Shown: positions 17,678 through 64,000 of the stretch, one piece after another | Position numbering within the stretch: position 1 is the first letter of the stretch | Layout of the letters: every line of letters starts with the position of its first letter | Source: Pseudo-nitzschia pungens | Lineage: Eukaryota > Bacillariophyta > Bacillariophyceae > Bacillariales > Bacillariaceae | Length of the DNA stretch: 64,000 nucleotides | NCBI GenBank assembly: GCA_037355855.1 | Contig: CM074764.1 | Span: forward strand, 3,968,001-4,032,000 | Reading direction: 5' to 3' | Position numbers and translations under genes: made by a program | The notes under the pieces: generated by a model | What the model was told of the DNA's origin: nothing | The model's input: the letters and a program-made list of their open reading frames with translations, nothing else | Database searches by the model: none

Positions 17678-18284
17678 CGTCCGAAAACTGGTTCGCGACC
17701 CCTCCCAAGAATTTATTTAGGGGGGTCGCGATTTCTCCCTGGCTCATTTTGACGTAGCTCCATTCGTAGCTCTCTCCCGATTCGCAACCCCCAATCGCGA
17801 CCCAGTTACTACCTCAATTACGAGAAAAAAAAATAAAAAAAAATAAAATTCATACTCGACCCGATTTTTTTAAGACTCGAATTTTTTCTCTTCAGTCACT
17901 TAATCAAATTAATCAACATTTTAAAAAAAAAATATTTGTTTTCTCAAAATAATCCCCCCCTTCCCCCAATTTTTTTTTTAATCTGACTCATTATTACCGA
18001 CCCTACCAACATTATATAATATGAGACTGTTGCAGAAATTCACTCCCAAAAATTGATTTCTCATCCCGACCCAAAGTATTTCCCATCACACCCCTCAAGA
18101 AATTCATCACCAAAATCACAATTATTACCCGAAGCCCAGGAATCGCGACCCCCATGAAAAAAAATTTTGAAACACTATGAAGCAAAATATAAGTCTTTCT
18201 TTTGATAAATATTGATATTACTCTAATAATTGTTTATTCTCTGTTCAATTTTCTCACACACGCACACACAAATTTTGGTTCGTT

Positions 18285-18600
18285 AGAAGAAGAAGTCGTC
18301 CTTGAAATCATCGTCGCTCTTCATTTCGATCGTCCTTGTCTTCATCGTCCTTGAAGTCGTCGTTGCTTCTCGCTTCGATCGTCTTCGTCCTCCCTGAAGA
18401 AGTCGTCGTTGCTCTTCGCTCCGATTGCCTTCCTCTTCGTCGTCCTCCCTGAAATCGTCGTCCTCTCTGAAATTGTCGTTGCTCTTCGCTTCGATTGGCT
18501 TCGTCGTCCTCTCTGAAATCGTCGTTGCTCTTCGCTTCGATCGTCTTCGTCGTCCTTGAAATTGTCGTTGCTCTTTGCTCCGATTGTCTTCGTCCTCATG
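18285..18600. repeat. ~45-bp tandem repeat of element A
   Basis: Units are of the form CGTCGTTGCTCTTCGCTTCG plus ATCGTCTTCGTCGTCCTTGAAAT. The same block is in element B (31085-31350) and element C (62840-63150). An inverted version of the unit occurs at 21580-21700 in A. The RSKRRATT-type peptides it encodes are repeat translations. Confidence 0.75.
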
Positions 18601-19439
18601 CACACCACACAAATTTTGGTTCAAACAATTTTTAAATAATGGTCATCGTGATAATTTCATCCATACCGGTATCTGTACTGCCAGTAAAGGTCTCCTCACA
18701 TCGCATCATATTTCATCAGTTGCAATCGCATCATTTTGTCAGTTGCGATCACATCATATTTGTCTTGCGATCGCAATATGTGTCAGTTGCCCCGTCGCAT
18801 CATTTTTCACATCATTTTTCAGTTGCCCCGTTGCATTACTAAAGTTGATTCTTCCCTATCAGTAGCAAGCAGGAGGCAACTCAATTCAGAATTAGAACAA
18901 TTGAAATCCATTATCAATACCCCAGATCTTGATGTGCTTCACTCACCGTTGCATTATATTTCATTTGCCGTTGCATCCTATTTCATCAGCAGTTGCGGTC
19001 GCCTCCCTATCATGAGCAAGCAGGCAAGTCAATGATGCACAGTTAGACGAATCAAAATCCATTATTAATACCTCCTCCAACCTTGATGTGGTTCACTTAC
19101 CATTTCCAGTTGCCGTCTTTCTTGTTCCATTTCGACCCAAAATTATGTGAAGTAAGATTTACGACACATGCATTTTCTGTCATGCATTTATTTGCTGAGA
19201 ATTGATTTCTTCTACATGATAGCAGTAGAGTTACTACTAGTAGTATGTACCGTACCGAAGTAATAGTAGAAACCAGTAGAAACCTGATGGTGGTATCATT
19301 GCGCGCCACCTAAACCATAGAGAGCCAGCCCCGCTGCGCCATAATTTTGGACTACCTCTTATGTACTACTACCTACGCACTGCAGTAGTATGTAGCAGCA
19401 GTGTATAACTGTGGTACTACTACTACAAGCAGCAAGAAT

Positions 19440-20695
19440 AGTACTACCTCAGTGAATATACCATCAAATCAAATATCTGAATGAATGTGGTCAATCTTTG
19501 TGTGATTCCAATGTGAATATTTCTCATCCTATGCATGGGCAAGAGTATGCAAAAAGAAGTATTCAAAAATCACCTATAATTTGGATGGCACCACTGAATA
19601 ATTAATATTTGGTCCACTACTGTGGAATTTACTAGAAAATACTGTAAAATCACATATCTGAATGAATCTGGCCAATAGTTGTGTGATTCCAGTGTGACTA
19701 TTCCTCATCCTATGCATGGTCAAGAGTATGCAAAAAGAAGTATTCAAAAATCACCTATAATTTGGGTGTCACCACTGAATAATTAATATTTGGTCCACTT
19801 CTGGAAAATTCACTAGAAAAAAGTACCAAATGAATATCTGAATGAATGTGGCCAATAGTTGTATGATTCCAGTGTGAATATTCCTCATCCTATCCATGGG
19901 CAAGAGTATTCAAAAAGAAGTATTCAAAAATCACCAATAATTTGGATGTCACCACTGAATAATTAATATTTGGCCCAGTACTGCGGCATGTACTAGAAAA
20001 TACTGTAAAATCAAATATCTGAATGAATGTGGCCAATCTTTGTGTGATTCCAGTGTGAATATTTCTCATCCTATGCATGGGCAAGAGTATTCAAAAAGAA
20101 GTATTCAAAAATCACCAATAATTTGGATGGCACCACTGAATAATCAATATTTGGCCCAGTACCTCAGCATTTAGTAGAAAATACTCTAAAATCAAATATC
20201 TGAATGAATGTGGCCAATCTTTGTGTGATTCCAGTGTGAATATTCCTCATCCTATCCAAGGGCAAGACTATTCAAAAAGAAGTATTGAAAAATCACAAAT
20301 AATTTGGATGTCACCACTGAATAATTAAAATATTTGGTCCACTACTGCGGAATCTACTAGAAAAAAGTACCAAATCACATATCTGAATGAATCTGGCCAA
20401 TAGTTGTGTGATTCCAGTGTGACTATTTCTCATCCTGTGCATGGGCAAGACTATGCAAAAAGAAGTATTCAAAAATCACCAATAATTTGGGTGTCACCAC
20501 TGAATAATTAATATTTGGCCCAGTACCGCAGCATTTAGTAGAAACTGCTGTAAAATCAAATATGTGAATGAATCTAGTCAATATTTTGTGATTCAAGTGT
20601 GAATATTTCTCATCCTATGCATGGGCAAGAGTATGCAAAAAGAAGTATTCAAAAATCACCAATGGTATGGATGTCACCATTGAATAACTGAATAG
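19440..20695. repeat. 181-bp satellite of element A, seven units
   Basis: The landmark CTGAATGAATCTGGCCAAT recurs near 19476, 19660, 19840, 20020, 20201, 20384 and 20565. Each unit also holds GGGCAAGAGTATGCAAAAAG and TCACCACTGAATAATTAATA. It is homologous to 32220-33290 in element B. The window ends just where the same array would start in element C. Confidence 0.85.
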
Positions 20696-20755
20696 ATCAC
20701 CTGGTGACAAATGCTTCGCAGCAAAAATATTTCTATTGCATCGTGTTGTAGCAAA

Positions 20756-20830
20756 AGACATTCCCATGATGGGACTTGAACCAACAACACCACATTACAG
20801 GCCTGCCAAAGTGCCACTATTACTGTTGGC
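20756..20830 (-). other. tRNA-like remnant with a B-box
   Basis: The minus strand reads GGTTCAAGTCCCATCATGGG, a good match to the Pol III B-box, with an A-box-like TGGCACTTTGGCAGG about 25 bases upstream. A clean cloverleaf cannot be drawn: there is no matching 5' acceptor strand. The homologous place in element B (33350-33420) reads GGTTCGAGTCCCGTCACGGG. It is probably a decayed tRNA or SINE head, not a functional tRNA. Confidence 0.35.
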
Positions 20831-21107
20831 TACTGCTAATGAGGGGGTCTTGCCATCTTATAATGCCACTACGGGGAAGCCTCTAATATGTACCAGCAGT
20901 AATATGTACTGTCTATACGTACTTTCGGTACGTACTACTAGGTACGGGCATGTACTCACCACCAGTCATTTTTTGTTGTACTCAGTCAGTAGACTCACTA
21001 CCAGAATCTACGTACTACATTGATGTCATTTTTTTCACTCAGCCTGTACACCCAGTACTGTAGACTACTACTGTAAAGTACGACAACATAGTGGTGAATT
21101 TTGAGAT

Positions 21108-21623
21108 TCAACCACCTATCCTGTATTTTCCGCCCCACATCTCCCTCGTGAAGGATGTGTCATAATTTTCATTTTCGTTTCGTTTCGGCGTTGGAATTTT
21201 CTGGCCGGTCCAGTTGAAAGTGAACCACGAGGCGCCTGGTACCATCTTGGAGAGACAAACGGCAAAGAAAGTATAGAACTGATCACTCTTGAAATCCTTG
21301 TTACCGTTTTCTTTTGCTATCAAGGTAGGGTGGGCTGCAGTCCTCGAATCACCTGGCTTACCCAGATATCTACGAGTATGACGCGTGCGAACGAACCTGC
21401 AGAGGACGACGAAGACGATCGGAACAATGAAGACCGAAGACACTAAAAGGTACGATCGTAGAAGAGGGGGACGACGATGACGAGCGAGCTGACGACGACG
21501 ACCGGGACGACGCCGACGACTAACCGCCCGTTGTTTATTTTGTACAACCACACACAGATTGTAGCAAAGAGCAACGACGAAGACGATCGAAGCGAAGAGC
21601 AACGACGACTTCAAGGATGACAA
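21108..21623 (-). pseudogene. Coding-like remnant in element A
   Basis: A 171-codon minus-strand frame. Its C-terminal 70 codons (for example LIAKENGNKDFKSDQFYTFF, then FTFNWTGQKIP) look protein-like, while its N-terminal half overlaps the tandem repeat. The homologous stretch in element B (33780-34070) shares GGCCGGTCCAG, CCCACATCTCCCTCGT and CTGGCTTACCCAGATAT but is not open. It is probably a decayed captured exon or transposase piece; the family is not recognised. Confidence 0.3.
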
Positions 21624-21773
21624 ACACGATCGAAACGAAGAGCAACGACGATTTCAAGGACGACGACGACGATCGAAACGAAGAGCAATGACGATTTCAA
21701 GAACGACGACGACGAGGGGAACGACGAACGACCGATACGATCGAAAGACGGCGATAGTTCTTTAAAAATATTC

Positions 21774-23490
21774 TCATGTATTATCCCCCCTGTATTATTG
21801 ATGCGTTGCTGCTTGCTGTCCCCCCTGTATTATCGACGCGTTGCTGCTGCTTGCTGTCCCCCCCCTGTATTAACGACGCGTTCGTTGCTGCTTGCTGTCC
21901 CCCCCTGTATTATCGACGCGTTGCTGCTTGCTGTCTCCCCTGTATTATCGACGCGTTGCTGCTTGCTGTCCACCCCCGTGTATTATCGACGCGTTGCTGC
22001 TTGCTGTCCACCCCCGTGTATTATCGACGCGTTGCTGCTGCTTGCTCCCCCCTGTATTATCGACGCGTTTATATTATCGACGCGTTGCTGCTGCTTGCTG
22101 TCCCCTCTCCCTGTATTATTGACGCGTTGCTGCTTGCTGCTGCGGAACAAATAGGGACGACGACGACAACGGGAACGATCGGAAAAGGTAATAAGGCGAC
22201 GAAGGAAATAGTTCTTTAAAAATATTCTCGTGTATTATCCCCCTGTATTATCGACGCGTTGCTGCTGCTTGCTGCTGCTGCTTGCTATCCCCCCCCTGTA
22301 TTATGGACGCGTTGCTGCTTGCTGCTTGCTGTCCCCCCCTGTATTATCGACGCGTTTGTATTATCGACGCGTTTGTATTATCGACGCGTTTGTATTATCG
22401 ACGCGTTTGTATTATCGACGCGTTCGTATTATCGATGCGTTGCTACTTGTTGCTGCTTGCTGTCCCCCCTGTATTATCGACGCGTTTGTATTATCGACGC
22501 GTTTGTATTATCGACGCGTTTGTATTATCGATGCGTTGCTGCTTGCTGCTGCTTGCTGTCCCCCCCCTGTATTATCGACGCGTTGCTGCTGCTTGCTGTC
22601 CCCCCTCTGTATTATCGACGCGTTGCTGCTGCTTGCTGTCCCCCCTCTGTATTATCGACGCGTGGTTGCTGCTTGCTGTCCCCCCTCTGTATTATCGACG
22701 CGTTGCTGCTTGCTGCTTGCTGTCCCCCCTGTATTATCGACGCGTTGCTACTGCTTGCTGCTTGCTGTCCCCCCTGTATTATCGACGCGTTTGTATTATC
22801 AACGTGTTGCTGCTGCTTGCTGTCCGCCCCTGTATTATCGACGCGTTGGTTCCTGCTTGCTGTCCCCCCTGTATTATCGACGCGTTGCAGCTTGCAGGAG
22901 CGACAGATCGTTGCTGCTAGCTGTCCCCCCCCTGTATTATCGATGCGTTGCTGCTTGCTGCTGCTTGCTGTCCCCCCCTTATTATCGACGCGTTGCTGCT
23001 TGCTGTCCCCCTGTATTATTGACGCGTTGCTGATTGCTGTCCCCCTGTATTATCGACGCGTTGCTGCTTGCTGCTGCTTGCTGCCCCCCCCTGTATTATC
23101 GACGCGTTGCTGCTGCTTGCTGCTTGCTGTCCTCCCCCTGTATTATCGACGCGTTTATCGTTTATATTATCGACGGGTTGCTGCTGCTTGCTGTCCCCCC
23201 CCTGTATTGCTGCTTGCTGTCCCCCCTGTACTAAATTTTTTTCTACATATATCCCTGTACAATTTGTACTGGAAAATCGAATTTTTTGATTGGCTCATTC
23301 AAATCGTTGCTGCTGCTTGGTGTCCCCCCTGTATTATCGACGCGTTGCTGCTGCTTGGTGTCCCCCCTGTATTATCGACGCGTTGCTGCTGCTTGGTGTC
23401 CCCCCCTGTATTATCGACGCGTTGCTGCTGCTTGGTGTCCCCCCCTGTATCATCGACGTGTTGTTGCTGCGGCTGCGTTGCTGCTGCTTG
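21774..23490. repeat. 36-38-bp GC-rich minisatellite of element A
   Basis: The unit is TGTATTATCGACGCGTTGCT plus GCTGCTTGCTGTCCCCCC, with short variants that carry only GTATTATCGACGCGTTT. It lies in three blocks (21774-22157, 22225-23235, 23305-23490). The first two each begin after a shared GATAGTTCTTTAAAAATATTCTC-like leader. Long open frames through it (up to about 417 codons) result from the repeat lacking stops and are not genes. Confidence 0.9.
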
Positions 23491-23811
23491 CTGTGATGGT
23501 GGTGTGTGTTGAACCAAAGGAAGGGTGACTTCTTCTTTCACGGAAGAAATGAAATCCATAAGATTGTTATCACGATAATAGGTCCGGCAATCACTATTGA
23601 AATAAAGATGCTTGGAGAGCCCTTGAGATACATATCGATAGGTGAAATTGTAGCTCGATTCTTGTTTGTACCCCTTGAATGATTTTGATTTTCTTCTTCG
23701 TCCGGAGGCAATGCAGTTGCGACAATGGAATGTCTTGGGTATTCTGGGATCATTGGCAAAGTGCCTTGGGTTGGAGGAAGCTTTCGGCATGGTGGTGTGC
23801 GTGAAATACAA
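23299..23811 (-). CDS. Small zinc-finger-like protein of element A, running into minisatellite
   Basis: The 170-codon frame starts about 370 bp inside the right TIR and points inward. Residues 1-98 form a unique domain with C23-x2-C26, a basic stretch GRRRKSKSFKG, and GLSKHLYFNSDC placing H61 and C68. That is a plausible C-C-H-C zinc site like those at the N-terminus of some Plavaka/CACTA-type transposases (analogy only). Residues 99-170 are translated minisatellite (Q/T/G-rich). Element B carries a homologue at 36153-36854 with the frame kept. It may be the surviving first exon of a lost transposase or a DNA-binding accessory protein. Confidence 0.5.
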   Translation of the reverse strand: MYFTHTTMPKASSNPRHFANDPRIPKTFHCRNCIASGRRRKSKSFKGYKQESSYNFTYRYVSQGLSKHLYFNSDCRTYYRDNNLMDFISSVKEEVTLPLVQHTPPSQQAAATQPQQQHVDDTGGDTKQQQRVDNTGGDTKQQQRVDNTGGTPSSSNASIIQGGHQAAATI

Positions 23812-24182
23812 ACATGTGTTTGATAATAAAATAATTGTTGTTGTGATGCGATGCGAAGGAGGAAAATTAAAATGGTCCGTGACGTAACTTTTGTGTGATG
23901 AAGTAACAAATCTGATTAAAAATTATTTGTTATATGGAGTCGAATGTGTCAAATCTGTAAAATGGAATGAAAAGTTGACGAGGGACTGAATATCAGGGTC
24001 TAGATCGGAACATTTTCCAGAAAACGATGTGGGGATTGAGAAAAAAAAGAAATAAGGTTGAGAATAGTGGAAAAGAGGTTGTGAAATAAAAAATTGGGGT
24101 TGAATTTTTTTTAGACAAGTAGCGATTGGGTCGCGATCGGGTCGCGATTGGTCGCGATGGGTCGCGAACCAGTTTTCGGACG

Positions 24183-30604: not shown

Positions 30605-31084
30605 CGTCCGAAAACTGTTTCGCGACCCCTCCCAAGAATTTATTTAGGGGGGTCGCGATTTATTCCTGGCTCATTTTGACGTAGCTCGATTCCTAGCTCT
30701 CTCGCGATTCGCAACCCCAATCGCGACCCAGTAACTACCTCAATTACGAAAATTACGAAAAAAAAAAAATAAAATTCAAACTCGACCCAAATTTTTTACC
30801 GACCCTACCATCATTATATATTATGAGACTGTTGCAGAAATTCACTCCCAAAAATTGATTTCACATCCCGACACAAAGTATTTCCCATCACACCCCTGAA
30901 GAAATTCATCACAAAAATCACAATTATTACCCGAAGCCCAGGAATCGCGACCCCCATGAAAAAAAATTTTGAAACACTATGATGCAAAATATAAGTCTTT
31001 CTTTTGATAAATATTGATACTACTCTAATAATTGTTTATTCTCTGTTCAATTTTCTCACACACGCACACACAAATTTTGGTTCG

Positions 31085-31350
31085 TTAGAAGAAGTGGTCG
31101 TCCTTGAAGCCGTCGTTGCTTCTCGCTTCGATCGTCTTTGTCCTCCCTGAAGGCGTCGTTGCTCTTCGCTCCGATTACCTTCCTCTTCATCGTCCTCCCT
31201 GAAATCGTCGTCCTCTCTGAAATTGTTGTTGCTCTTTGCTTCGATTGGCTTCGTCGTCCTCTCTGAAATCGTCGTTGCTCTTCGCTTCGATCGTCTTCGT
31301 CGTCCTTGAAATCGTCGTTGCTCTTTGCTCCGATCGTCTTCGTCCTCATG
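31085..31350. repeat. ~45-bp tandem repeat of element B
   Basis: It is homologous to 18285-18600 and 62840-63150. Confidence 0.7.
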
Positions 31351-32219
31351 CACACCACACAAATTTTGGTTCAAACGATTTTTAGATTTTTAAATAATGG
31401 TCATCGTGATAATTTCATCCATACCGGTATCTGTACTGCCAGTAAAGGTCTCCTCACATCGCATCATATTTCATCAGTTGCAATCGCATCATTTTGTCAG
31501 TTGCGATCCCATCATATTTGTCTTGCGATCGCATTATGTGTCAGTTGCCCCGTTGCATCATGTTTCGCATCATTTTTCAGTTGCCCCGTCGCATTAAAGT
31601 TGATTCTTCCCTATCAGTAGCAAGCAGGCAACTCAATGCAGAATTAGAACAATTGAAATCCATTATCAATACCCCAGATCTTGATGTGCTTCACTCACCG
31701 TTGCATTATATTTCATTTGCCGTTGCATCCTATTTCATCAGCAGTTGCGGTCGCCTCCCTATCAGGAGCAAGCAGGCAAGTCAATGATGCACAGTTAGAC
31801 GAATCAAAATCCATTATTAATACCTCCTCCAACCTTGATGTGGTTCACTTACCATTTCCATCTCATTATATTTCAGTTGCCGTCTTTCTTGTTCCGTTCC
31901 GACCCAAAATTATGTGAAGTAAGATTTACGACACATGCATTTTCTGTCATGCATGTGTTTGCCGAGAATTGATTTCTTCTACATGATAGCAGTAGAGTTA
32001 CTACTAGTACTAGTAGTATGTACCGTACTGAAGTAATAGTAGAAACCAGTAGAAAGCTGATGATGGTGATATCGCGCGCCACCTAAACCACAGAGAGCCA
32101 GCCCCGCTGCGCCATAATTTTGGACTACCTCTTATGTACTACTACCTACGCACTGCAGTAGTATGTAGCAGCAGTGTATAACTGTACTACTACTACAAGC
32201 AGCAAGAATAGTACTACCT

Positions 32220-33295
32220 CAGTGAATATACCATCAAATCAAATATCTGAATGAATCTGGCCATTCTTTGTGTGATTCCAGTGTGAATATTTCTCATCCT
32301 ATGCATGGGCAAGACTATTCAAAAAGAAGTATTCAAAAATCACCAATAATTTGGATGTCACCACTGAATAATTAGTAGTTGGCCCAGTACTGCGGAATTT
32401 ACTAGAAAATACTGTAAAATCACATATCTGAATGAATCTGGCCAATCTTTGTGTGATTCCAGTGTGAATATTTCTCATCCTATCCATGGGCAAGAGTATG
32501 CAAAAAGAAGTATTCAAAAATCGCCAATGGTATGGGTGTCACCACTGAATAATTAATATTTGGTCAACTACTGCGGAATTCACTAGAAAAAAGTAGCAAA
32601 TCACATATCGGAATGAATCTGGCCAATAGTTGTGTGATTCCAGTGTGAATATTCCTCATACTGTGCATGGGCAAGAGTATGCAAAAAGAAGTATTCAAAA
32701 ATCACCAATAATTTGGGTGTCACCACTGAATAATTAATATTTGTTCCACTACTGCGGAATTTACTAGAAAAAAGTACCAAATCACATATCTGAATGAATG
32801 CGGCCAATAGTTGTGTGATTCCAGTGTGAATATTTCTCATCCTGTGCATGGGCAAGACTATTCAAAAAGAAGTATTCAAAAATCACCTATAATTTGGGTG
32901 TCACCACTGAATAATTAATATTTGGCCCACTACTGCGGAATTTGCTAGAAAAAAGTACCAAATCACATATCAGAATGAATCTGGCCAATATTTGTGTGAT
33001 TCCAGTGTGAATATTTCTCATCCTGTGCATGGGCAAGACTATTCAAACAGAAGTATTCAAAAATCACCAATAATTTGGGTGTCACCACAGAATAATTAAT
33101 ATTTGGCCCAGTACCGCAGCATTTAGTAGAAACTGCTGTAAAATCAAATATGTGAATGAATCTAGTCAATATTTTGTGATTCCAGTGTGAATATTTCTCA
33201 TCCTATGCATGGGCAAGAGTATGCAAAAAGAAGTATTCAAAAATCACCAATGGTATGGATGTAACCATTGAATAACTGAATAGATCACCTGGTGA
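32220..33295. repeat. 181-bp satellite of element B, six units
   Basis: GAATGAATCTGGCCAAT landmarks lie near 32250, 32430, 32611, 32792, 32973 and 33153. B has one unit fewer than element A. Confidence 0.85.
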
Positions 33296-33345
33296 CAAAT
33301 GCTTCGCAGCAAAAATATTTCTATTGCATCGTGATGTAGCAAAAG

Positions 33346-33420
33346 ACATTCCCGTGACGGGACTCGAACCAACAATACCAACTGCATACAATCCAGTAGT
33401 GCCACTATTACTGTCTACTA
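33346..33420 (-). other. tRNA-like remnant with a B-box, element B
   Basis: The minus strand reads GGTTCGAGTCCCGTCACGGG, a better B-box match than in A, with TGGCACTACTGG as a possible A-box. The acceptor stem is not convincing. Confidence 0.35.
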
Positions 33421-34194
33421 CTGCTAAACAGGTGTTCTCTCCATCTTTTAATGCTACCACCATCTCGGGGAAGGCTCATCCTGTATAATATGTACCAACA
33501 CTAAGTTACCGTACCTCCACCACTTCGCGCCAAAAGATTTGTACCAGTACCGTACGTACCGTTTACACCGTACTGGAAACCTACACATCCCCAGCCTGTA
33601 CGTACTGTCGGTACCTACTAGGAACGGGTATGCACAGACCTGTCATTTTTTTTCTCAGCCTGTACACTTAGTACTGTAAAGTACGTACATTGCTGTCATT
33701 TTTTCCACTCAGCCTGTACACACAGTACCATAAAGCACGTAATAAAGCACTAAAGCACTACGTCACAGTGGCAGATCGATTTTCCGCCCCACATCTCCCT
33801 CGTACCGGATGTGTCATAATTTTCATTTTCATTTTCATTTTCGTTTCATCTCATGCATCGGAATATTCTGGCCGGTCCAGTTTAACCTAGCCATCAGGCA
33901 CCGGGACCATCTCTTTTGAAAAAGACACACATGCTGTGGGGAGCTTGAGAACGGCCGCTCTTGCTTTCTGCTCTGTTGTCTGATTCATATCACGGAGGTT
34001 GGGTGTGTTGAAGTCCTGGAACTACCTGGCTTACCCAGATATACGACGTACTGAAATTGAAAACAACGAAGACGAAAATCACAACCGAGGGTACGATCGC
34101 TCCAGAGGGGGACGATGGTGGTACGGTCGCTACAATCGTTTCTAACAGGAGTTTCTTGTTGTTTTAACTTTCGCCTTTCCAGAGAAAAACAACC

Positions 34195-34510
34195 GATACG
34201 ATTGCTGAAGAGGGGAACGACGAACGACCGATACGATTGCTGAAGAGGGGAACGACGAACGACCGATACGATTGCTGAAGAGGGGAACGACCGATACGAT
34301 TGCTGAAGAGGGGAACGACGAACGACCGATACGAGTGCTGAAGAGGGGAACGAAAGATACGATTGCTGAAGAGGGGAACGACGAACGACCGATTCGAGTG
34401 CTGAAGAGGGGAACGACGAATGACCGATACGATTGCTGAAGAGGGGAACGAAAGATACGATTGCTGAAGAGGGGAACGACCAATACGATTGCTGAAGAGG
34501 GGAACGACAA
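34195..34510. repeat. ~26-35-bp tandem repeat GAAGAGGGGAACGACGAACGACCGATACGATTGCT
   Basis: About ten imperfect units immediately precede the minisatellite in element B. Only a short degenerate counterpart exists in element A (21700-21745). Confidence 0.7.
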
Positions 34511-34544
34511 GGAAAGACGGCGATAGTTCTTTAACAATATTCTC

Positions 34545-36540
34545 GTGTATTATCCCCCCTGTATTATCGACGCGTTGCTGCTGCTTGCTGTCCCCCCTGT
34601 ATTATCGACACGTTGCTGCTGCTTGCTGTCCCCCCTGTATTATCGACGCGTTGCTGCTGCTTGCTGTCCCCCCCCCCTGTATTTTCGTCGCGTTCGTTGC
34701 TGCTTGCTGTCCCCCCCCCTGTATTTTCGTCGCGTTCGTTGCTGCTTGCTGCGACGCGTTCGTTGCTGCTTGCTGCTTGCTGTCCCCCCCCCTGTATTGT
34801 CGACGCGTTCGTTGCTGCTTGCTGTCCCCCCCCCTGTATTTTCGACGCGTTCGTTGCTGCTTGCAGTCCCCCCTGTATTGTCAACGCGTTGGTTGCTGCT
34901 TGCTGCTTGCTGCTTGCTGTCCCCCCCCCTGTAATATCAACGCGTTGGTTGCTGCTTGCTGTCCCCCCTGTATTATCGACGCATTGCTGCTTGCTGCTTG
35001 TTGCTGCTTGCTGTCCCCCCTATATTGTCGACGCGTTGCTGCTTGCTGTCCCCCCCCGTATTATCAACGCATTCGTTGCTGCTTGCTAATTGCTGTCCCC
35101 CCCTGTATTATCGACGCGTTGCTGCTTGCTGCTGCTTGCTGTCCCCCCCTGTATTATCGACGCGTTGCTGTTTGCTGTTTGCTGTCCCCCCTGTATTATC
35201 GACGCGTTGCTACTTGCTGCTTGCTGTCCCCTCTCCTTTATTATCGACGCGTTTGTATTATCGACGCGTTGCTGCTGCTTGCTGTCCCCCCCCCTGTATT
35301 ATCGACGCGTTTGTATTATCGACCCATTGCTGCTGCTTGCTGTCCCCCCCCTGTATTATCGACGCGTTGCTGCTTGCTGCTGCTTGTTGTCCCCCCCTGT
35401 ATTATCGACGCGTTGCTGCTTGCTGTCCCCCCTGTATTATCGACGCGTTGCTGCTTGCTGCTGCTTGCTGTCCCCCCTGTATTATCGACGCGTTTGTATT
35501 ATCGAGACGCGTTGCTGCTGCTTGCTGTCCCCCCCCTGTATTGTCGACGCGTTCGTTGCTGCTTGCTGCTCGCTGTCCCACCCCTGTATTTTTGACGCGT
35601 TGCTGTTTGCTGCTTGCTGTCCCCCCCCTGTATTTTCGACGCGTTCGTTGCTGCTTGCTGCTTGCTGTCCCCCCTGTATTGTCGACGCGTTCGTTGCTGC
35701 TTGCTGCTTGCTGTCCCCCCCTGTATTATCGACGCGTTGCTGCTTGCTGCTGCTTGCTGTCCCCCTGTATAAATTTCTTTTTCGACATAAATCCCTCTAC
35801 AATTTGTACTGGAAAATCGAATTTTTTGATTGCCTCGTTCACTCATCACCTCTATCTGCTTGCTGCTTCTTGCTGTCCCCCCTGTATTATCGACGCGTTG
35901 CTGCTGCTTGCTGTCCCCCCTGTATTATCGACGCGTTGCTGCTGCTTGCTGTCCCCCCTGTATTATCGTCGCGTTGCTGCTGCTTGTTGCTGCTTGCTGT
36001 CCCCCCTGTATTATCGACGCGTTGCTGCTTGCTGTCCCCCCTCGTACTATCGACGCGTTGCTGCTGCTTGATGCGTGCTGAGCCCCCCCTGTATTATCGA
36101 CGCGTTGCTGCTGCTTGCTGTCCCCCCCTGGATTATCGACGCGTTTGTTGTATTATCGACGCGTTGCTGTTTGTATTATCGACGCGTTGCTGCTGCTTGC
36201 TGTCCCCCCCCTTGTATTATCGACGCGTTGCTGCTGCTTGCTGTCCCCCCCCTGTATTATTGACGCGTTGCTGCTGCTTGCTGTCCCCCCCTGTATTATC
36301 GACGCGTTTGTATTATCGACGCATTGCTGCTTGCTGCTTGCTGTCCCCCCCTTTATAATCGACGCGTTTCTGCTGCTTGCTGTCCCCCCTGTATTATCGA
36401 CGCGTTGCTGCTGCTTGCTGTCCCCCCCTGTATTATCGACGCGTTGCTGCTGCTTGCTGTCCCCCCCCTGTATTATCGACGCGTTGCTGCTGCTTGCTGT
36501 CCCCCCTGTATTATCGACGTGTTGCTGCTTGCTGCTTGGT
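34545..36540. repeat. 36-38-bp minisatellite of element B
   Basis: It has the same unit as 21774-23490 and adds variants with GTATTTTCGTCGCGTTCG. It is split near 35766-35865 by a unique stretch (ACAATTTGTACTGGAAAATCG) that also splits the array in element A at 23235-23305. Confidence 0.9.
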
Positions 36541-36854
36541 GTCATTGTCAGTCCATACTGTGATGGTGTGTGTCGGACCAAAGGGAGGGTGACTTCTGCT
36601 TTCGCAGAAGAAATAAAATCCATAAGATTGTTCGCACCATAATAAGTTTGGCAATCATTGTTGGAATAGAGATGCCTGGAGAGGCCTTGAGATACATATC
36701 GGTAGGTGTGAAAGTGGCTCGATTCTTGTTTGTATCCCTTGAAGGATTTTGATTTTCTTCTTCTTCCAGAGGCAATGCAGTTGCGACAATGGAATGTCTT
36801 GGGTATTCTGGGCTCATTGGCAAAGTGCCTTGGGTCGGAGGAAGCTTTCGGCAT
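36153..36854 (-). CDS. Small zinc-finger-like protein of element B, running into minisatellite
   Basis: It is the homologue of 23299-23811. The first ~95 residues align with the copy in A with scattered substitutions and no frame break; the C23/C26 and H61/C68 positions are kept. The remaining residues are minisatellite translation with several NASIIQGG repeats. It starts about 410 bp inside the right TIR. Same interpretation: a transposase N-terminal remnant or a small DNA-binding protein. Confidence 0.5.
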   Translation of the reverse strand: MPKASSDPRHFANEPRIPKTFHCRNCIASGRRRKSKSFKGYKQESSHFHTYRYVSQGLSRHLYSNNDCQTYYGANNLMDFISSAKAEVTLPLVRHTPSQYGLTMTPSSKQQHVDNTGGTASSSNASIIQGGDSKQQQRVDNTGGDSKQQQRVDNTGGTASSRNASIIKGGTASSKQQCVDNTNASIIQGGTASSSNASIIQGGDSKQQQRVDNTRGGTASSSNASIIQTATRR

Positions 36855-37265
36855 GGTGGTGTGTGTTTTTGTGATGCGATTCTTAGCTGGGGTACCGGTA
36901 TGTGATGTGACACCACTGAAAAAAAAAGTTCACAAAGGTGCACGACGTAACACTTTGGTGTGATTGAAGTAAATTGGATTAAAAATTATTTGTTGTGTTG
37001 AGTCAAGTGTGTCAAATGTGTAAAATGGAATGAAAGTGTGAAGAGGGACTGAATGTCAGGGTCTAGAACAGAACATTTCCGTCGACCCGTTGGGGGAGTT
37101 GAGAAAAGGGAGAAATGTGGTTGAGAATAATGGAAAAAAGTTGAGAATAATAAAAAAGAGGTTGTGAAATAAAAAATTGGGGTTGAATTTTTTTTAGACA
37201 AGTCGCGATTGGGTCGCGATCGGGTCGTGATTGGTCGCGATGGGTCGCGAAACAGTTTTCGGACG

Positions 37266-55810: not shown

Positions 55811-55853
55811 CGTCCGAAAACCGGTTCGCGACCCCTCCCAAGAATTTATTTGG

Positions 55854-56588
55854 CAGGGGTCATAATATAAGAAGGGGTACGCCACGACGTCTGTCCGTCG
55901 TCCGTGTTCGACGTACAAATACTAGTAAAAAAAAAATGGCACTCCATATTCCATGTGTGGTCCAATTTAGAAAAATTTCCCTCAGTCAATTTTTTTCTTC
56001 TCATAATTTACTGCATATCACTAGTAAAAGTGTACCTGATAAAGCAACTTACCAAGTACACTTCCAATCACTCTCCAACTTTTAAATTCGATATGCAGCT
56101 CATGTATATAGTTGAGAGTCAAGTAGTAAGTACCTTTTTCAGTTTACATCCATCTGCTGTCTGATATTGCTGATTCAAACTACCAGTGATCTGTGCCTTC
56201 CACCTGGAATATAAAATACAAAATCGGATCGTCCGTCCGTCATCCGTTTTATTTTTATTCAATTAAAAGCTTCCACTTGGAACCAAAATTTGGACCATCC
56301 ATCCGAATAACTTACTTTATCTTCCATCCATCTAGAGTGAAAAGCAGTTACATATTCATGATCCTTGTAAAAAATTGGGCTAGATACAATATTCAAATAT
56401 TGTTTTGTTACAATTTTTGATGGAGTTGTTATAGATTGAACTGTAATAGTTTTTGTTAGTATTATGCAGTGAAAGTGGAAAAAAAAAATTGAGGTTGAGG
56501 GAAATTTTTCTAAATTGGACCACACATGGAATATGAATCACCGATTTTTAGCGATCGTGGCGTACCCCTTCTTATATTATGACCCCTG
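55854..56588. mobile_element. hAT-type foldback MITE
   Basis: Terminal inverted repeats start CAGGGGTCATAATATAAGAA and continue GGGGTACGCCACGA at each end. The 8-bp duplication TTATTTGG flanks it (55846-55853, 56589-56596). Elements A and B show the related uninterrupted site. A second inner inverted pair (CCATGTGTGGTCCAATTTAG and on, 55951-55984 against about 56496-56530) gives a foldback structure. 735 bp, non-coding; CAGGGG tips and an 8-bp duplication are hAT hallmarks. Confidence 0.88.
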
Positions 56589-56805
56589 TTATTTGGGGGG
56601 GTCGCGATTTATTCCTGGCTCATTTTGACGAGCGAGAAAAAAAAATAAAATTCAAACTCGACCCAAATTTTTTTTCAATCTGACTCATTATTATCGACCC
56701 TACCATCATTATATATTATGAGACTGTTGCAGAAATTCACTCCCAAAAATTGATTTCTCATCCCGACACAAAGTATTTCCCATCACACCCCTCAAGAAAT
56801 TCATC

Positions 56806-56994
56806 TGCCGTGCGCCAAAATACAGTCACGAGCGCACACGGGACTGGATTAAGGATAAGGATAAAAACAATCGGCGAGTTGACAGAATCGCTGATTCGGA
56901 GGGCTCTTAGAACTGTAGCAAATGGACTAATCAATAGAGCTCACAATTTGCATATCACTACTGTTTTAATCACTAGTAGACCCGGGGTATGGCA
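56806..56994 (+). repeat. gypsy copy 2 5' LTR
   Basis: 189 bp, beginning TGCCGTGCGCC and ending GGGGTATGGCA. Confidence 0.93.
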
Positions 56995-57743
56995 TGATTT
57001 TAAAATCAAGCTGAGCGCTGATGACCATGAGCAGAAAGGACCGATCGGACCAAGGGACCAACGGATCCGAAAGACTGCCAAAAATGGAGGCGCAGAGAAG
57101 CAAAAACAGGGAGAAGGATATCCAGTGTCTGCAGCACAAGGAAGACCGACCCCAGCAACTGTTGGCGCCCAAAGAAGGGAGGAGCAACAGCAGCAACAGA
57201 GACACCTAAGTACCTAAACAGGACCATGGTCGACAACAGGAAATAATCGAAAAACACGAAAACATGTGCCGAAAAAGTGACACATAAATCAGTGAGTGGA
57301 CTAATTGGACCAACACTGAGTGGATGGACAGACCGCAGACGGATGCCAACCAAAACCGAAATATACGGATATCCGGAAAGGTATATAACCAAATACCCAA
57401 ACACCACTAATCCCACGGGATACGGGAAGTGGGACCGGCCCGGTGACAACTTAAGAAAGAAGCAACGCCGGAGAACCACGGGAATCGAATCCCACGAAAT
57501 AAAAACAGAAACAACTCCGGGGAACCACAGGATTCCCGTGAGCTAAAGAGAGAAACAACTCCCACCACTGAACAGACCAGGGGGAAAATCAGTTATAACA
57601 CGAGTTATCGCGAGAGCAGCTTAATCTAGAACTGAAAACTGGAAGAACTGGAGCAATCATTCTTGCCCAGTTCAGCTCAAAGCAACAAGATAACAGAAAT
57701 AGTGTAACTGAATTAAACTTAATAGAAAACTGATTAACTCACC
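56995..57743 (+). other. gypsy copy 2 leader
   Basis: The first bases TGATTTTAAAATCAAGC are where a primer site should lie, but I cannot match a tRNA. A 62-codon frame (57021-57209) has a counterpart in copy 1 with most residues retained. Confidence 0.5.
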
Positions 57744-59183
57744 ATGGCGGCTAAAGGAACCAAACTGAAACCCTTTAACATCATTCGGGAGGACTGGCCA
57801 GAAGACGCCACCGCCGTAAAAATGAGTGTAGACAGCGAGAAGGGTGGAATCGCATTCAGTGACTACCTGAAGGTCCTCCATGGTACGGAGAGACCAGAAC
57901 TCTTCATCATCTGGAAGAGGGACTTTGACCAGAAAATTGCTGGCAATGACAAACTCCATGGAGACCAAAAGCTGGACGTCCTACAGAGAATCCTCTCTGG
58001 GGAAGCACTAGCCCTTGTCCAGAGGACGCTCACTCGGACTCTTTATGCCGAACCGAAGCACAAGATCCACAATACCAAACCGGTACAGAAGAAGATCCAG
58101 GAAATCGAAAAACACGATCAAGCCAACATCCTCTTATCGATGGGGCAAGATGCCACCGAAACTCCCACGGGAGCCACCAAGGAGAAGGCAAAGGAGAAAT
58201 CTCCCGACGCCGACAAAACCAAACCGACTGCCACGGCGAACTCGGATGAGGAAACGGAGCCAGAGGAATTGGCTCCAATCCCAAAGAAAAGCGTCCCCAA
58301 CGCTCTCACCCAGTACTACCGATCAGCGGAGTACAGGAAAGATGTCATGGACGAATGCATGCATGTCCTCAAACTCAAAATTTTTGGCAATGACCAAAAC
58401 GGCAAACGCTCATATATCATCCTCCGTCGATTCATGCGGGGAATGCGAGTGGAACTCAAACATGGCATACGAGCATGGGCCAACCGAATGGCCGAACTAC
58501 AAAGCTACCTCCCAGAATATCTCTGGGAATGTGGCAGTGACCAAATGGAAACACCGAGAAGTTTCACACAGGGAGAAATGAAGGAAATATTGGACTCCAA
58601 CATGACCCACTCCCAGCGCGAGAAACTGGAACACATTGGATGGGACCTCTACACCCACTCCTTTAACACCACTATCGACAAACTTGAAAATCTGGAAACC
58701 ACCATCCGGAAGGAGACGGTCCTCCAGCAGCGCATCGCTGACCTCGAGAAGCAGAACGGCAGCACCAAGAAGAATCCCAAGGCCGCATCTGGGGGAGGAA
58801 ACCACCATGGAAAGTCCCCTGGCAAAAAGAAGCGTCCTATGGATAACAGTAACAAACAGCTCTGCAAGACCTGTGGCAAGGTCCATGCCGGCAAATGCTG
58901 GAAACTAACCGGTGGCCCCTCCAAGAAGGGAAAGTTTGACCGGGAAACCATCAACTTGCTCAAGGAGCACTTTGTGGCAAAAGAACAAGACTCAGACACT
59001 GAGCAACACTCCAAACCCCACTGGGGAAGGAACCTATCGAACCACGAGTACTCTTATGTACTGGCCACGGCCCAAGCTGACCACGACGTCTCTGATGACG
59101 AGATCGACATCTCCGAACGGGAACTCAAAGAGTACAGAAGAAAGTACAGAAAGACCTTTAAAAAGAAAGGATCCCATAACTGA
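57744..59183 (+). CDS. gag: gypsy Gag, copy 2
   Basis: 479 residues, same length as copy 1, with ACCATGG start context. A capsid-like domain lies at about 185-335. A helical linker is followed by a basic KSPGKKKRP region. The knuckle C374-x2-C377-x3-H381-x3-C385 binds RNA. The C-terminus is rich in E/R/K (ERELKEYRRKYRKTFKKKG). It forms the particle shell. Its TGA (59181-59183) is followed at once by the pol ATG in the same frame. Confidence 0.93.
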   Translation: MAAKGTKLKPFNIIREDWPEDATAVKMSVDSEKGGIAFSDYLKVLHGTERPELFIIWKRDFDQKIAGNDKLHGDQKLDVLQRILSGEALALVQRTLTRTLYAEPKHKIHNTKPVQKKIQEIEKHDQANILLSMGQDATETPTGATKEKAKEKSPDADKTKPTATANSDEETEPEELAPIPKKSVPNALTQYYRSAEYRKDVMDECMHVLKLKIFGNDQNGKRSYIILRRFMRGMRVELKHGIRAWANRMAELQSYLPEYLWECGSDQMETPRSFTQGEMKEILDSNMTHSQREKLEHIGWDLYTHSFNTTIDKLENLETTIRKETVLQQRIADLEKQNGSTKKNPKAASGGGNHHGKSPGKKKRPMDNSNKQLCKTCGKVHAGKCWKLTGGPSKKGKFDRETINLLKEHFVAKEQDSDTEQHSKPHWGRNLSNHEYSYVLATAQADHDVSDDEIDISERELKEYRRKYRKTFKKKGSHN

Positions 59184-62100
59184 ATGGCCGATACCATCCA
59201 CACTGGACCCCGCATCATCAACAGATATGCAGACGTCTGTGTGGAGGTATTGGACCACAAGGGAAGGGGGAGGATGCTCCGGGGCCTACTCGACTCCGGT
59301 TGCTCCAAATCCATCATACTAAGGCACTTTGTCGACCGAAGTCAACTAACGAACCGAGACCACAGATCCGTCACCTATAATACCTATGGGGGCAAGTTCC
59401 GAACCAAGTCTGCGGCTTCAGTGGGACTGAGGTTGATAGAGTTTTCAAACTCCAAAACCATCAAATGGACCTTCCAAGTGGATGAATACCATCACTATGA
59501 GGAGGTGCCCTACGACATGATCATAGGATCCGACATGATGGCACAATTGGGACTGGATATAAAATACAGCTCCCGAACCATCGAATGGCAGGGTGACTCC
59601 ATCCCCATGAAGGGAATGGGGGAACTTACTGACCCGGACAAATGTGAGGCAGTATTCTTTGCCAACACACAGAGCCCGATCCTCCAACAGGAGGAAGAGA
59701 GGCAAGCCAAAATCTTGGACGCAGACTACTCCAAAGTCGATATAGACGCCATGGTCAATGACTTGGAGATTACGGACGCGTCCAAGGAAGCCTTGAAGAA
59801 AACACTGAAGAAATTCCCAACACTATTTGGAGGAGGGTTGGGTCTACTCAAAAATATAGACCCGGTGTCCATTGAGCTCCAACCAGGGGTCAAACCGGTC
59901 CGGCAGAGGTACTACTCGGTGCCCCATGCCTTTGAACAAGCACTCCGAAAGGAGATCACCAGGCTCTGTGATATTGGAGTCCTGGAGAAACTCCCCCACG
60001 ATGATGACTCACCGTGGGCATCCCCTACCTTCTGTCAACCAAAGAAGACAGGCGATATCCGAGTTCTCACCGACTTCCGGAAAATGAACGCCGCCATCCA
60101 GAGGAAACCATTCCCACTACCACGAATAGGGGAAACAATCCAAAGGCTACAGAAGTTCCAATCAGCTACGGCGCTGGACTTGTCCCAAGGTTACTACACC
60201 ATCCCCATCTGCAAAGAGAGCCAGAAAATCTGCTCCACCATTCTGCCGTGGGGAAAGTATGCCTACAAGAGACTAGCAATGGGGATTGCTTGTGCTCCGG
60301 ACATCTTCCAATCAGTCATGATGAACCTACTAGGGGATCTGGACTACGTCCTTGTCTATATTGATGATATCCTGATCATTCAACGGGAGGGAGAATCCGA
60401 ACAGGATCATCTCAACAAAATCGATACAGTCCTACAGAGACTGGACGATGCTGGCTTCCGAGCCAACCTCAGAAAATCCTTTTTCATGCAAAAAGAAGTG
60501 GAATATTTGGGATTTCTGCTAACAACAGAGGGCATTCAGCCCCAGCCAAAGAAGCTGGAGGCGATGAAGCGACTAGAAGCCCCCAAGAACACCAAGCAAC
60601 TCAAGATGTTCCTTGGAATGGTAAATTTCTACCGGGATATGTGGAAGCGGCGCTCCCACATCCTGGCCCCCCTCAATAAACTAGCAGGGAAAAAGGGAAA
60701 AATGAATTGGTACTGGGGACCTACAGAGCAGAAAGCTTTCATGGAGGCGAAACGAATGCTCGCGGATGAAGCCAAGCTTGCATTCCCGGATTTTACGAAA
60801 CCATTTCATCTCTACTCAGATGCCAGTGACAGGCAACTAGGAGCAACAGTATGCCAAGATGGCAAGCCCCTTGGTTTCTACACAAGGAAATTAAACTCAG
60901 CGCAGCTCAATTACACTGTAGGAGAAAAGGAACTCCTAGGCATAGTGGAAGGGCTCAAAGCGTTTGAAGGAATCCTACGAGGACAAGATGTGATTATTCA
61001 CACAGACCACCTGAACCTACTGTATCAGCAGATGCCAACGCAGAGAATGGTACGATGGAGACTCCTTGTGGAGGAGTTCCACCCAGTAGTCAAGCACGTC
61101 GCCGGCAAAGACAACGACGCTGCGGACGCACTATCGCGGTTGGATATCACTGATGACCCAGCGGACACAGTGGAATGGTTACCACCAAATAAGCCCCTCA
61201 CTTACGCGGATGAGGAAGAGCACCTCCGGCAACTTCTATTCCCACTTGGAGAAGAAGCTCCGGAAGAATTCCAGGGCAATAGTGCATTCCCACTTGCCCC
61301 GGACATGATTCAGTTCTACCAACAAAAGGACACAGGAATCATGAGCGCCTTGGAAAAAGACAACCAACTGACCACCAAAATGGTGGAAGGTTATAATCTG
61401 ATCCACAAGGAAGGGAAAATCCTAATCCCGGACAACCTCAAAGACAGAGTCATGGAATGGTACCACAGCATGCTGGTCCATCCCGGAGAAAAGAGAATGG
61501 AACAGAGCATTCGCTCAGTGTTCACCTGGAGAGGCCTACGGAAGGACGTCCAGGACCTCTGTAAACACTGCCACACGTGCCAGATGTTCAAAAAGAGTGG
61601 CCGGAAGAAGTATGGACTACTACCGGAGAAAGCAGTTGAGGTCACCAAATGGCAGAGGGTCAATGTGGACCTCTGGGGACCTGCAACCGTTCACAATAAA
61701 AATGGTAAAGACTACCACATCCATGTTCTCACCATGGTGGATCCAGTAACCGGATGGTTTGAGCTGGCTCACCTAAAGGACTCCCCAAACGCAGCAGAAA
61801 CTCAACGTTTGCTAGACAGTACCTGGCTAGCAAGGTATCCGCGCCCAAAGGAAATTGGCTTTGATGGCGGGAGTGAGTTCAAAGCAGAGTTCCAAGAGCT
61901 CTGTAACAACATGGGGATGAAAAGAAAACCCAGTGGCGCTTGGAACCCACAATCCAACTCAGTACTGGAAAGGATCCATCAGGTCCTGAAGGATTGTTTA
62001 TTGTCCTTCAACTTGGAACAAAGGGACCTCCACGAGAAGGACCCTTTTGAGGAATTCACTACCAAGGCAGCATACGCGATTCGCAGCGCCATCCACACCA

Positions 62101-62450
62101 CTCTGGGATATTCCCCAGCGCAACTGGTGTTTGGAAGGGACATGTTCATGCCTGTGAATTTCCCAGTGGATTGGGAAGCAATCCAAGCAAGAAAACAGAA
62201 AAGTATCCACAAGAGCAATATCCGGGAGAATCAGAAGAGAATTCCCCATGTCTACAAAGAAGGAGACTATGTCACTCTAGAAAGGAAGGGCATTGTTCCG
62301 AAACTATCCTTCCCACGACAAGGACCTTACAAGGTGGTCAAGGCCCATGACAATGGAACTGTAACTATTGAAACTGCTCCCTTTGTAACCGACCGGGTTA
62401 ACATTAGGAGAGTGCACCCTTATTATTGCAGGGATCCTATTAAATCGTAA
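59184..62450 (+). CDS. pol: gypsy Pol polyprotein (protease, RT, RNase H, integrase)
   Basis: 1,088 residues, unbroken. Protease has LLDSGCS (D37) with IIGSDMM as the second half. RT spans about 240-470 with ALDLSQGYY (D332) and VYIDDIL (392-395). RNase H spans about 540-660 with YSDAS (D546), GEKELLG (E583), HTDH (D608) and DNDAADAL. Integrase has the zinc module H761...H766...C793-x2-C796, the core D829 (VDLWGP), D894 (GFDGG), E929 (VLERIHQ) and a GPYKV module near the end. RT before integrase is the gypsy order. Whether it is made by UGA readthrough from gag or by reinitiation at its own ATG cannot be told from sequence. Confidence 0.95.
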   Translation: MADTIHTGPRIINRYADVCVEVLDHKGRGRMLRGLLDSGCSKSIILRHFVDRSQLTNRDHRSVTYNTYGGKFRTKSAASVGLRLIEFSNSKTIKWTFQVDEYHHYEEVPYDMIIGSDMMAQLGLDIKYSSRTIEWQGDSIPMKGMGELTDPDKCEAVFFANTQSPILQQEEERQAKILDADYSKVDIDAMVNDLEITDASKEALKKTLKKFPTLFGGGLGLLKNIDPVSIELQPGVKPVRQRYYSVPHAFEQALRKEITRLCDIGVLEKLPHDDDSPWASPTFCQPKKTGDIRVLTDFRKMNAAIQRKPFPLPRIGETIQRLQKFQSATALDLSQGYYTIPICKESQKICSTILPWGKYAYKRLAMGIACAPDIFQSVMMNLLGDLDYVLVYIDDILIIQREGESEQDHLNKIDTVLQRLDDAGFRANLRKSFFMQKEVEYLGFLLTTEGIQPQPKKLEAMKRLEAPKNTKQLKMFLGMVNFYRDMWKRRSHILAPLNKLAGKKGKMNWYWGPTEQKAFMEAKRMLADEAKLAFPDFTKPFHLYSDASDRQLGATVCQDGKPLGFYTRKLNSAQLNYTVGEKELLGIVEGLKAFEGILRGQDVIIHTDHLNLLYQQMPTQRMVRWRLLVEEFHPVVKHVAGKDNDAADALSRLDITDDPADTVEWLPPNKPLTYADEEEHLRQLLFPLGEEAPEEFQGNSAFPLAPDMIQFYQQKDTGIMSALEKDNQLTTKMVEGYNLIHKEGKILIPDNLKDRVMEWYHSMLVHPGEKRMEQSIRSVFTWRGLRKDVQDLCKHCHTCQMFKKSGRKKYGLLPEKAVEVTKWQRVNVDLWGPATVHNKNGKDYHIHVLTMVDPVTGWFELAHLKDSPNAAETQRLLDSTWLARYPRPKEIGFDGGSEFKAEFQELCNNMGMKRKPSGAWNPQSNSVLERIHQVLKDCLLSFNLEQRDLHEKDPFEEFTTKAAYAIRSAIHTTLGYSPAQLVFGRDMFMPVNFPVDWEAIQARKQKSIHKSNIRENQKRIPHVYKEGDYVTLERKGIVPKLSFPRQGPYKVVKAHDNGTVTIETAPFVTDRVNIRRVHPYYCRDPIKS

Positions 62451-62468
62451 CAGTACCATGGAGGAGTA

Positions 62469-62657
62469 TGCCGTGCGCCAAAATACAGTCACAAGCGCAC
62501 ACGGGACTGGATTAAGGATAAGGATAAAAACAATCGGCGAGTCGACAGAATCGCTGATTCGGAGGGCTCTTAGAACTGTAGCAAATGGACTAATCAATAG
62601 AGCTCACAATTTGCATATCACTACTGTTTTGATCACTAGTAGACCCGGGGTATGGCA
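62469..62657 (+). repeat. gypsy copy 2 3' LTR
   Basis: 189 bp, 18 bp after the pol stop, preceded by the purine tract GGAGGAG. Confidence 0.93.
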
Positions 62658-62839
62658 TCATCACAAAAATCACAATTATTACCCGAAGCCCAGGAATCGC
62701 GACCCCCATGAAAAAAAATTTTGAAACACTATCAAGCAAAATATAAGTCTTTCTTTTGATAAATATTGATATTACTCTAATAATTGTTTATTCTCTGTTC
62801 AATTTTCTCACACACGCACACACAAATTTTGGTTCGTTA

Positions 62840-63150
62840 GAAGAAGTGGTCGTCCTTGAAATTGTCGTCGCTCTTCGTTTCGATCGTCCTCGTCTTTGTC
62901 GTCCTTGAAGTCGTCGTTGCTTCTTGCTTCGATCGTCTTCGTCCTCCCTGAAGTCGTCGTTGCTCTTCGCTCCAAATTGCCTTCCTCTTCGTCGTCCTCC
63001 CTGAAATCGTCGTCCTCTCTGAAATTGTTGTTGCTCTTTGCTTCGATTGTCTTCGTCGTCCTCTCTGAAATCGTCGTTGCTCTTCGCTTCGATCGTCATC
63101 GTCGTCCTTGAAATTGTCGTTGCTCTTTGCTCCGATCATCTTCGTCCTCA
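62840..63150. repeat. ~45-bp tandem repeat of element C
   Basis: It is homologous to 18285-18600 and 31085-31350. It encodes only repeat-derived R/K/S-rich frames. Confidence 0.75.
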
Positions 63151-63179
63151 TGCACACCACACAAATTTTGGTTCAAACG

Positions 63180-64000
63180 ATTTTTAAATAATGGTCATCG
63201 TGATAATTTCATCCATACCGGTATCTGTACTGCCAGTAAAGGTCTCCTCACATCGCATCATATTTCATCAGTTGGAATCGCATCATTTTGTCCGTTGCGA
63301 TCACATCATATTTGTCTAGCGATCGCAATATGTGTCAGTTGCCCCGTCGCATCATTTTTCGCATCATTTTTCAGTTGCCCCGTCGCATTACTAAAGTTGA
63401 TTCTTCCCTATCAGTAGCAAGCAGGCAACTCAATTCAGAATTAGAACAATTGAAATCCATTATCAATACCCCAGATCTTGATGTGCTTCACTCACCGTTG
63501 CATTATATTTCATTTGCCGTTGCATCCTATTTCATCAGCAGTTGCGGTCGCCTCCCTATCAGGAGCAAGCAGGCAAGTCAATGATGCACAGTTAGACGAA
63601 TCAAAATCCATTATTAATACCTCCTCCAACCTTGATGTGGTTCACTTACCATTTCCAGTTGCCGTCTTTCTTGTTCCATTTCGACCCAAAATTATGTGAA
63701 GTAAGATTTACTACACATGCATTTTCTGTCATGCATTTATTTGCTGAGAATTGATTTCTTCTACATGATAGCAGTAGAGTTACTACTAGTAGTATGTACC
63801 GTACCGAAGTAATAGTAGAAACCAGTAGAAACCTGATGGTGGTATCATTGCGCGCCACCTAAACCATAGAGAGCCAGCCCCGCTGCGCCATAATTTTGGA
63901 CTACCTCTTATGTACTACTACCTACGCACTGCAGTAGTATGTAGCAGCAGTGTATAACTGTGGTACTACTACTACAAGCAGCAAGAATAGTACTACCTCA
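63180..64000. other. Conserved non-repetitive block of the A/B/C family
   Basis: It matches 18640-19440 and 31397-32220 almost base for base. It contains several CATCATATTTCATC(A/C)G-type phrases. No frame is consistently protein-like in all three copies. It ends at the CAAGAATAGTACTACCTCA boundary that precedes the 181-bp satellite in A and B. Confidence 0.65.

Follow-up and report, generated by a model that had tools for sequence, protein, structure and literature searches.

Long satellite-bearing elements of Pseudo-nitzschia pungens as probable non-autonomous derivatives of a Plavaka-like transposon family

Analysis of a 64,000-nucleotide stretch of the Pseudo-nitzschia pungens genome (the window; assembly GCA_037355855.1, contig CM074764.1, positions 3,968,001 to 4,032,000) showed three long elements with terminal inverted repeats (TIRs), A, B and C, which are very probably non-autonomous, internally rearranged derivatives of a Plavaka-type (CMCT clade) cut-and-paste family with parents of about 15.4-15.7 kb. 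The family showed common tips and ends, target site duplications (TSDs), an empty insertion site, long reading frames with the catalytic motif, selection on the transposase and on a partner gene (orf4), and near-identical copies elsewhere. The kind of transposon is known; the family has new end sequences, a partner gene of no assigned family and built-in repeat arrays.

Tips, target site duplications and transposition

Element A (17678..24182, plus strand, 6505 bp), which we read as a non-autonomous Plavaka-like TIR element, has two mutually identical 24-bp tips, CGTCCGAAAACTGGTTCGCGACCC (17678-17701 and 24159-24182), flanked by the TSD TC (17676-17677 and 24183-24184). Element B (30605..37265, plus strand, 6661 bp) has the architecture of A, a tip variant, CGTCCGAAAACTGTTTCGCGACCC, at both ends and the TSD TA. 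The left part of element C (55811..64000, plus strand) starts with a tip preceded by TC and continues past the window. The boundaries of A and B, the start of C, the identical tips within A and within B and all of these duplications agreed with the initial annotation. Its claim of perfect tips common to all three elements held within A and within B only, as the tips of B and of C are each one base off that of A, the variant of C being another than that of B.

The genome searched comprised 66.9 Mb in 28 contigs. Its genes for silicic-acid transporters scored up to 775 bits against Pfam PF03842, which, with the labels of the named transposase relatives, points to a diatom. The exact 24-bp tip of A was found at 217 places, compared with 0 for a reversed control pattern, and with up to 3 mismatches it had 5 matches in the window, compared with 0 in 100 shuffles; chance was ruled out for the tips because both controls gave 0. 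Tip pairs were classified from the first 100 listed of the 217 exact places. Of these tips, 70 formed 35 inward-facing neighbour pairs less than 25 kb apart, and 27 pairs spanned 5.0-7.6 kb. Flanks were read for 34 of the 35 pairs (pair C4:6123740, on contig C4, was left out) together with A and B, giving 36 pairs. A 2-bp TSD flush with the tips was present in 34 of the 36, whereas 2,000 shuffled pairings gave 5.5 such matches on average and 12 at most. The dinucleotide preceding the left tip varied (TA 9, AT 6, TG 5, TT 5, and others). This tabulation was the check proposed in the initial annotation, and transposase-bearing longer relatives were found as well.

The insertion site of B is a Ty3/gypsy open reading frame (ORF; 28581-30647), and the same target was intact in the Ty3/gypsy copy nested in C (61145-61254; 110 bp gapless, 90% identity). 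A and B are genuine TIR transposons, and the varied 2-bp TSDs and the empty site of B speak strongly for transposition of the A/B/C family and against segmental duplication. Each end of A and of the autonomous relative E1 contained 4 copies of the motif TCGCGAC/GTCGCGA, with 0 copies inside A and 1 inside E1; shuffled ends (300) never contained more than 2.

Autonomous relatives and transposase

The initial annotation described the elements as having no transposase. Their small inward-facing frame is what remains of the 5' end of a Plavaka-like transposase gene (A, 23494..23790, minus strand, 99 codons, with the frame continuing into the minisatellite; B, 36561..36854, minus strand), and longer relatives with the same tips encode the enzyme. 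The frame of A had 150 scored genome matches from 201 candidates: 31 lay in frames of 1,000 codons or more, 14 in frames of 500-999 codons and 105 in shorter ones. One of the 31 long frames has a TGA within the match.

The autonomous copies fetched with both tips were E1 (C2:8647238-8662942), E2 (C1:5372472-5387923), E3 (C1:3117222-3137444) and E5 (contig C7, 15,362 bp), with lengths of 15.4-15.7 kb, or 20.2 kb in E3 including a nested insertion; for E4 (contig C4), the fetched part was the right 10 kb. These parents have the TIRs of A, B and C (CGTCCGAAAAC...) and the subterminal GTCGCGA motifs. E1 and E2 were 99.8% identical over their aligned parts, with different sites and flanks and the TSDs AA and TT, and E5 carries the tip variant of B and the TSD CA.

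The left end of about 600 bp (17678..18282, plus strand, with 4 subterminal TCGCGAC/GTCGCGA motifs) was 96.7% identical between E1 and A over 606 columns. Identity was 89% at the right end, where A has 4 GTCGCGA motifs spaced 10-11 bp apart (24120..24182, minus strand), 86% in the transposase 5' region and 93.8% in an internal block of 260 bp (21125..21384). E1 and A also had in common the repeats of about 45 bp. These comprise a tandem repeat of about 46 bp in A (18338..18594), related to the repeats flanking orf4 in autonomous elements, and a second block of about 43 bp (21574..21715), also present in autonomous elements. Because the ends, transposase 5' region, internal block, repeats and subterminal motifs are in common, A and B are read as derivatives of the 15-kb form whose interior has been replaced.

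The transposase (about 1,070 aa) is under purifying selection, with synonymous divergence (dS) between parents of 0.08-0.11. The catalytic residues of E1 were D379, D489, C511/C514, H750/H754 and E774, a D-D-C(2)C-H(3)H-E motif, and the motif strings were found in E3 and E5 as well. Across 36 aligned members, the columns of the second D, of the C and H pairs and of the E were invariant, and the first D was conserved in at least 90%. The transposase also has a RAG1/Transib-like catalytic fold. Plavaka (PF18759) was the sole Pfam family matched at E≤0.01 among the 36 members, 27 of which matched it (best 4.1e-17). Named relatives were labelled Cylindrotheca fusiformis and Psemu1, which we take to be Pseudo-nitzschia. 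A C-terminal BAH-like domain is tentatively assigned.

Transposase-start matches were restricted to one part of contigs C4, C5 and C9 (12 of 12 past 79% of the length of C4), with positional Kolmogorov-Smirnov p values of about 1e-8 (C4, C9) and 2e-5 (C5), and C2, C3 and C11 gave no significant departure. The confined parts are perhaps heterochromatin.

orf4 and other ORFs of the parents

The parents have two convergent genes at the right, the transposase and orf4, and three ORFs at the left. The orf4 gene, of about 730 codons, faces the transposase and lay 3.5-6 kb from it in 25 of the 31 long-frame copies (6 were without it). Out of 51 orf4 matches, 31 were accompanied by one of the 150 scored transposase starts and 20 were not. 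No family was assignable to orf4. Its ratio of nonsynonymous to synonymous divergence (dN/dS) was 0.25-0.27, so that it too is under purifying selection, and its dS between parents was 0.42-0.83 compared with 0.08-0.11 for the transposase.

Identity between E1 and E5 was mostly 94-98% over the left 6.5 kb, 78-86% (500-bp bins) at 7.5-11.5 kb and 94-99% at 12-15 kb; the final 700 bp or so were about 85% identical, and the divergence is thus not confined to the orf4 segment. In blastn, the whole orf4 segment was 78.4% (E1/E5) and 84.7% (E1/E3) identical, with most of the rest at about 95%. The position of a diverged orf4 segment within otherwise about 95% identical parents suggests an exchange of this segment by recombination between transposon lineages. 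The left ORFs, orf1 to orf3, had weak Pfam matches only, and over three pairs with few differences their dN/dS was 0.44-0.61, 0.43-1.03 and 0.38-0.47, respectively. No TET/JBP domain was found in a Pfam scan of the five E1 ORFs (orf4 frame from an internal ATG).

Satellite and minisatellite arrays

A 181-bp satellite occupies 19454..20694 of A (about 6.8 monomers) and 32224..33282 of B (about 5.8 monomers), and a GC-rich minisatellite, of about 38 bp in A, occupies 21785..23470 of A and 34553..36543 of B. The satellite pattern had 1,348 genome matches at up to 3 mismatches, and the minisatellite unit had 2,165 exact matches. Contexts were classified from the first 100 listed of each, with exact tips and transposase-start matches as the only landmarks.

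Of the satellite matches, all exact, 84 (28 of 39 arrays) lay within 7 kb of a landmark. Four of the 11 landmark-free arrays were fetched, and all four were in element relatives: one had a tip-like end, one matched A far past the satellite and two lay in diverged relatives with the same body, in whose fetched stretches the tip was not found. The proposal in the initial annotation that the elements are a satellite vehicle was borne out to the extent that the 181-bp array hitch-hikes with them; seeding of free arrays was not seen, as there was no free 181-bp array among the 28 near landmarks and the four others fetched.

The minisatellite matches formed 20 clusters, all in C1:1-3.9 Mb, of which the first 3.1 Mb has no listed exact tip. 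Six clusters were near landmarks, 2 were near a 181-bp array and 12 were far from both; the initial annotation had regarded blocks found mostly without the tips as a mark of segmental duplication, and the minisatellite behaves in this way in the sample. Three of the 12 far clusters were fetched, and all three had just the minisatellite in common with A. This includes locus L117 (C1:1277200-1280000), an element-like structure in which the minisatellite lies between long inverted arms (for example, 113 nt with 96% and 105 nt with 92% complementarity). An element-free minisatellite stretch also occurs in the window (46118-46546). In these samples the two arrays differ: the 181-bp array travels with the family and its relatives, and the minisatellite occurs in other contexts also.

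Copies inserted in the 181-bp satellite, in a transposase start and in the minisatellite (loci L048, L060 and L106) were noticed when flanks were read by eye.

A second 181-bp array of 3.4 monomers was present in E1 (2997-3612) and E5 (3253-3870; element coordinates). Parent and non-autonomous form thus each contain an array of exactly 181 bp, and the similarity of the two monomers was not above that of shuffles. This, together with the 0% indels reported for the arrays of A and B, would suit arrays that are selected parts of the element (such as nucleosome-phasing or replication-slowing DNA). We consider that unlikely, since it is one coincidence of period from which the functional role is argued, and the monomer count ranges from 5.8 to 10.8. 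We favour the satellite and minisatellite as passengers, which would have taken the place of the central coding part and hitch-hiked with the elements.

Remaining features of the window

Collinear blocks of A and B had identities of 91.5% (2.2 kb) and 82.7% (the final 0.9 kb), and C matched A at 97.6% over 1.35 kb. Of the internal parts named in the initial annotation, the repeats of about 45 bp, the 181-bp arrays and the GC-rich minisatellite were recovered, but not the tRNA-like piece: ARAGORN (bacterial code) found no tRNA across the window, Rfam found none at E≤1 over 17600-37400, and a GGTTCAAGTCC-like box was readable by eye only.

The left end of C belongs to the family, as annotated, but the element is broken by two insertions. 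The first (55854..56588, 735 bp) is an unrelated TIR element, with the tip CAGGGGTCATAATATAAG and 8-bp TTATTTGG repeats on both sides, and is presumably hAT-like. The second (56806..62657, plus strand) is the Ty3/gypsy retrotransposon, with long terminal repeats of about 189 bp that had 3 differences in 188 bases compared. The nearest right tip past the window (window-equivalent 67595) is flanked by TG, which does not match the TC at the left of C. Other tandem arrays, with a period of about 143-150 bp, lie outside the elements at 11800-14387 and 25577-26174.

Discussion

In the proposed explanation, the transposase of the parent would bind the tips and subterminal motifs and would excise autonomous elements and those of 5-7.5 kb alike, the latter being mobilised in trans, and insertion would follow with a 2-bp stagger.

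Several observations weigh against derivation from a Plavaka-like parent. The TSD was absent in 2 of the 36 pairs, with tips 22.4 and 9.2 kb apart; these are probably tips of different elements. One of the 34 TSD matches sits in minisatellite DNA with a 9-bp match and hence carries little weight. The right ends of non-autonomous and autonomous elements are just 82-90% alike. The PF18759 profile scored 25.0 bits (E 1.3e-5) for E1, which is below the curated cut-off of 26.3, and 9 of the 36 aligned members had no PF18759 match at E≤0.01. The family is accordingly classed as probably Plavaka-like, within the CMCT clade.

Membership of CACTA/EnSpm proper instead of Plavaka would fit the short TSD, and subterminal repeats are typical of CACTA. 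The C(2)C and H(3-4)H motif is common to EnSpm, Plavaka and Transib in the accessible text of PMC12730594, where EnSpm families are given CAC..GTG ends and 3-bp TSDs. The ends here are CGT..ACG with 2 bp duplicated, and with Plavaka as the sole Pfam family matched, a CACTA/EnSpm assignment appears improbable. Segmental duplication or an assembly artefact, with blocks copied along with their ends without transposition, is hardly credible, for although copies cluster within parts of some contigs and tips are often missing beside the sampled minisatellites, the varied TSDs, the differing flanks of the near-identical E1 and E2 and the clean empty site of B all stand against it.

Given a Plavaka-like family, a further possibility, which we regard as doubtful, is a non-fungal third Plavaka lineage that would work as a two-protein system. 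Its transposase would combine a RAG1-like core with a C-terminal BAH-like chromatin reader, and its partner orf4 would be fast-diverging, recombinationally swapped and cysteine-rich, possibly zinc-binding, at the N-terminus; the 181-bp arrays would change sequence and keep their period since their length positions nucleosomes.

The family is estimated at 150-200 copies in the genome, from the exact tips and the scored transposase starts. A large repeat family is thereby tied to a definite transposase, and an autonomous/non-autonomous pair is provided. This makes testable the mobilisation of long satellite-filled derivatives by a CMCT transposase, and the spread of satellites with elements (181-bp array) or their appearance in other contexts (minisatellite).

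Comparison with known transposons

The initial annotation knew of no named superfamily with these tips and duplications; the superfamily is Plavaka-like, CMCT, and the remark holds for the termini. As far as the available portion of PMC12730594 describes them, fungal PlavakaA and PlavakaB have TSDs of 2 bp and 2-3 bp and termini TGT..ACA and CATCA..TGATG, respectively, and a DDE transposase whose second D and last E enclose C(2)C and H(3-4)H. The present family is likewise a cut-and-paste TIR family with a 2-bp TSD and this motif, whereas its termini, CGTCC..GGACG, fit neither of the two groups published from fungi. The lack of a TET/JBP domain among the scanned E1 ORFs is a further difference.

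In Amoebidium appalachense, the giant Plavaka repeats (PMC11244446), in the part of that report at hand, likewise link a Plavaka transposase to multi-gene units far exceeding usual TIR elements, but they form tandem clusters of up to 50 kb with many tyrosine recombinase genes, compared with a 15-kb unit here. Plavaka-type cut-and-paste elements also occur in an alga in the case of EnSpm-Plavaka of the green alga Auxenochlorella, which the accessible text of PMC12633428 mentions without anatomy.

Jozin, a CACTA element of Chenopodium, has transposase-gene deletion derivatives tied to a satellite of about 40 bp, as here, and its monomer derives from the transposase (PMC7320549, in the portion available). 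The minisatellite here differs in this respect: there was no blastn match to the transposase gene among the E1/A matches listed, no dedicated test being made. Short satellite arrays are also carried by Helitrons (PMC5139131) and by the foldback element Tetris (PMC4079207), which, from the accessible parts of these sources, are mobile elements of other transposon classes.

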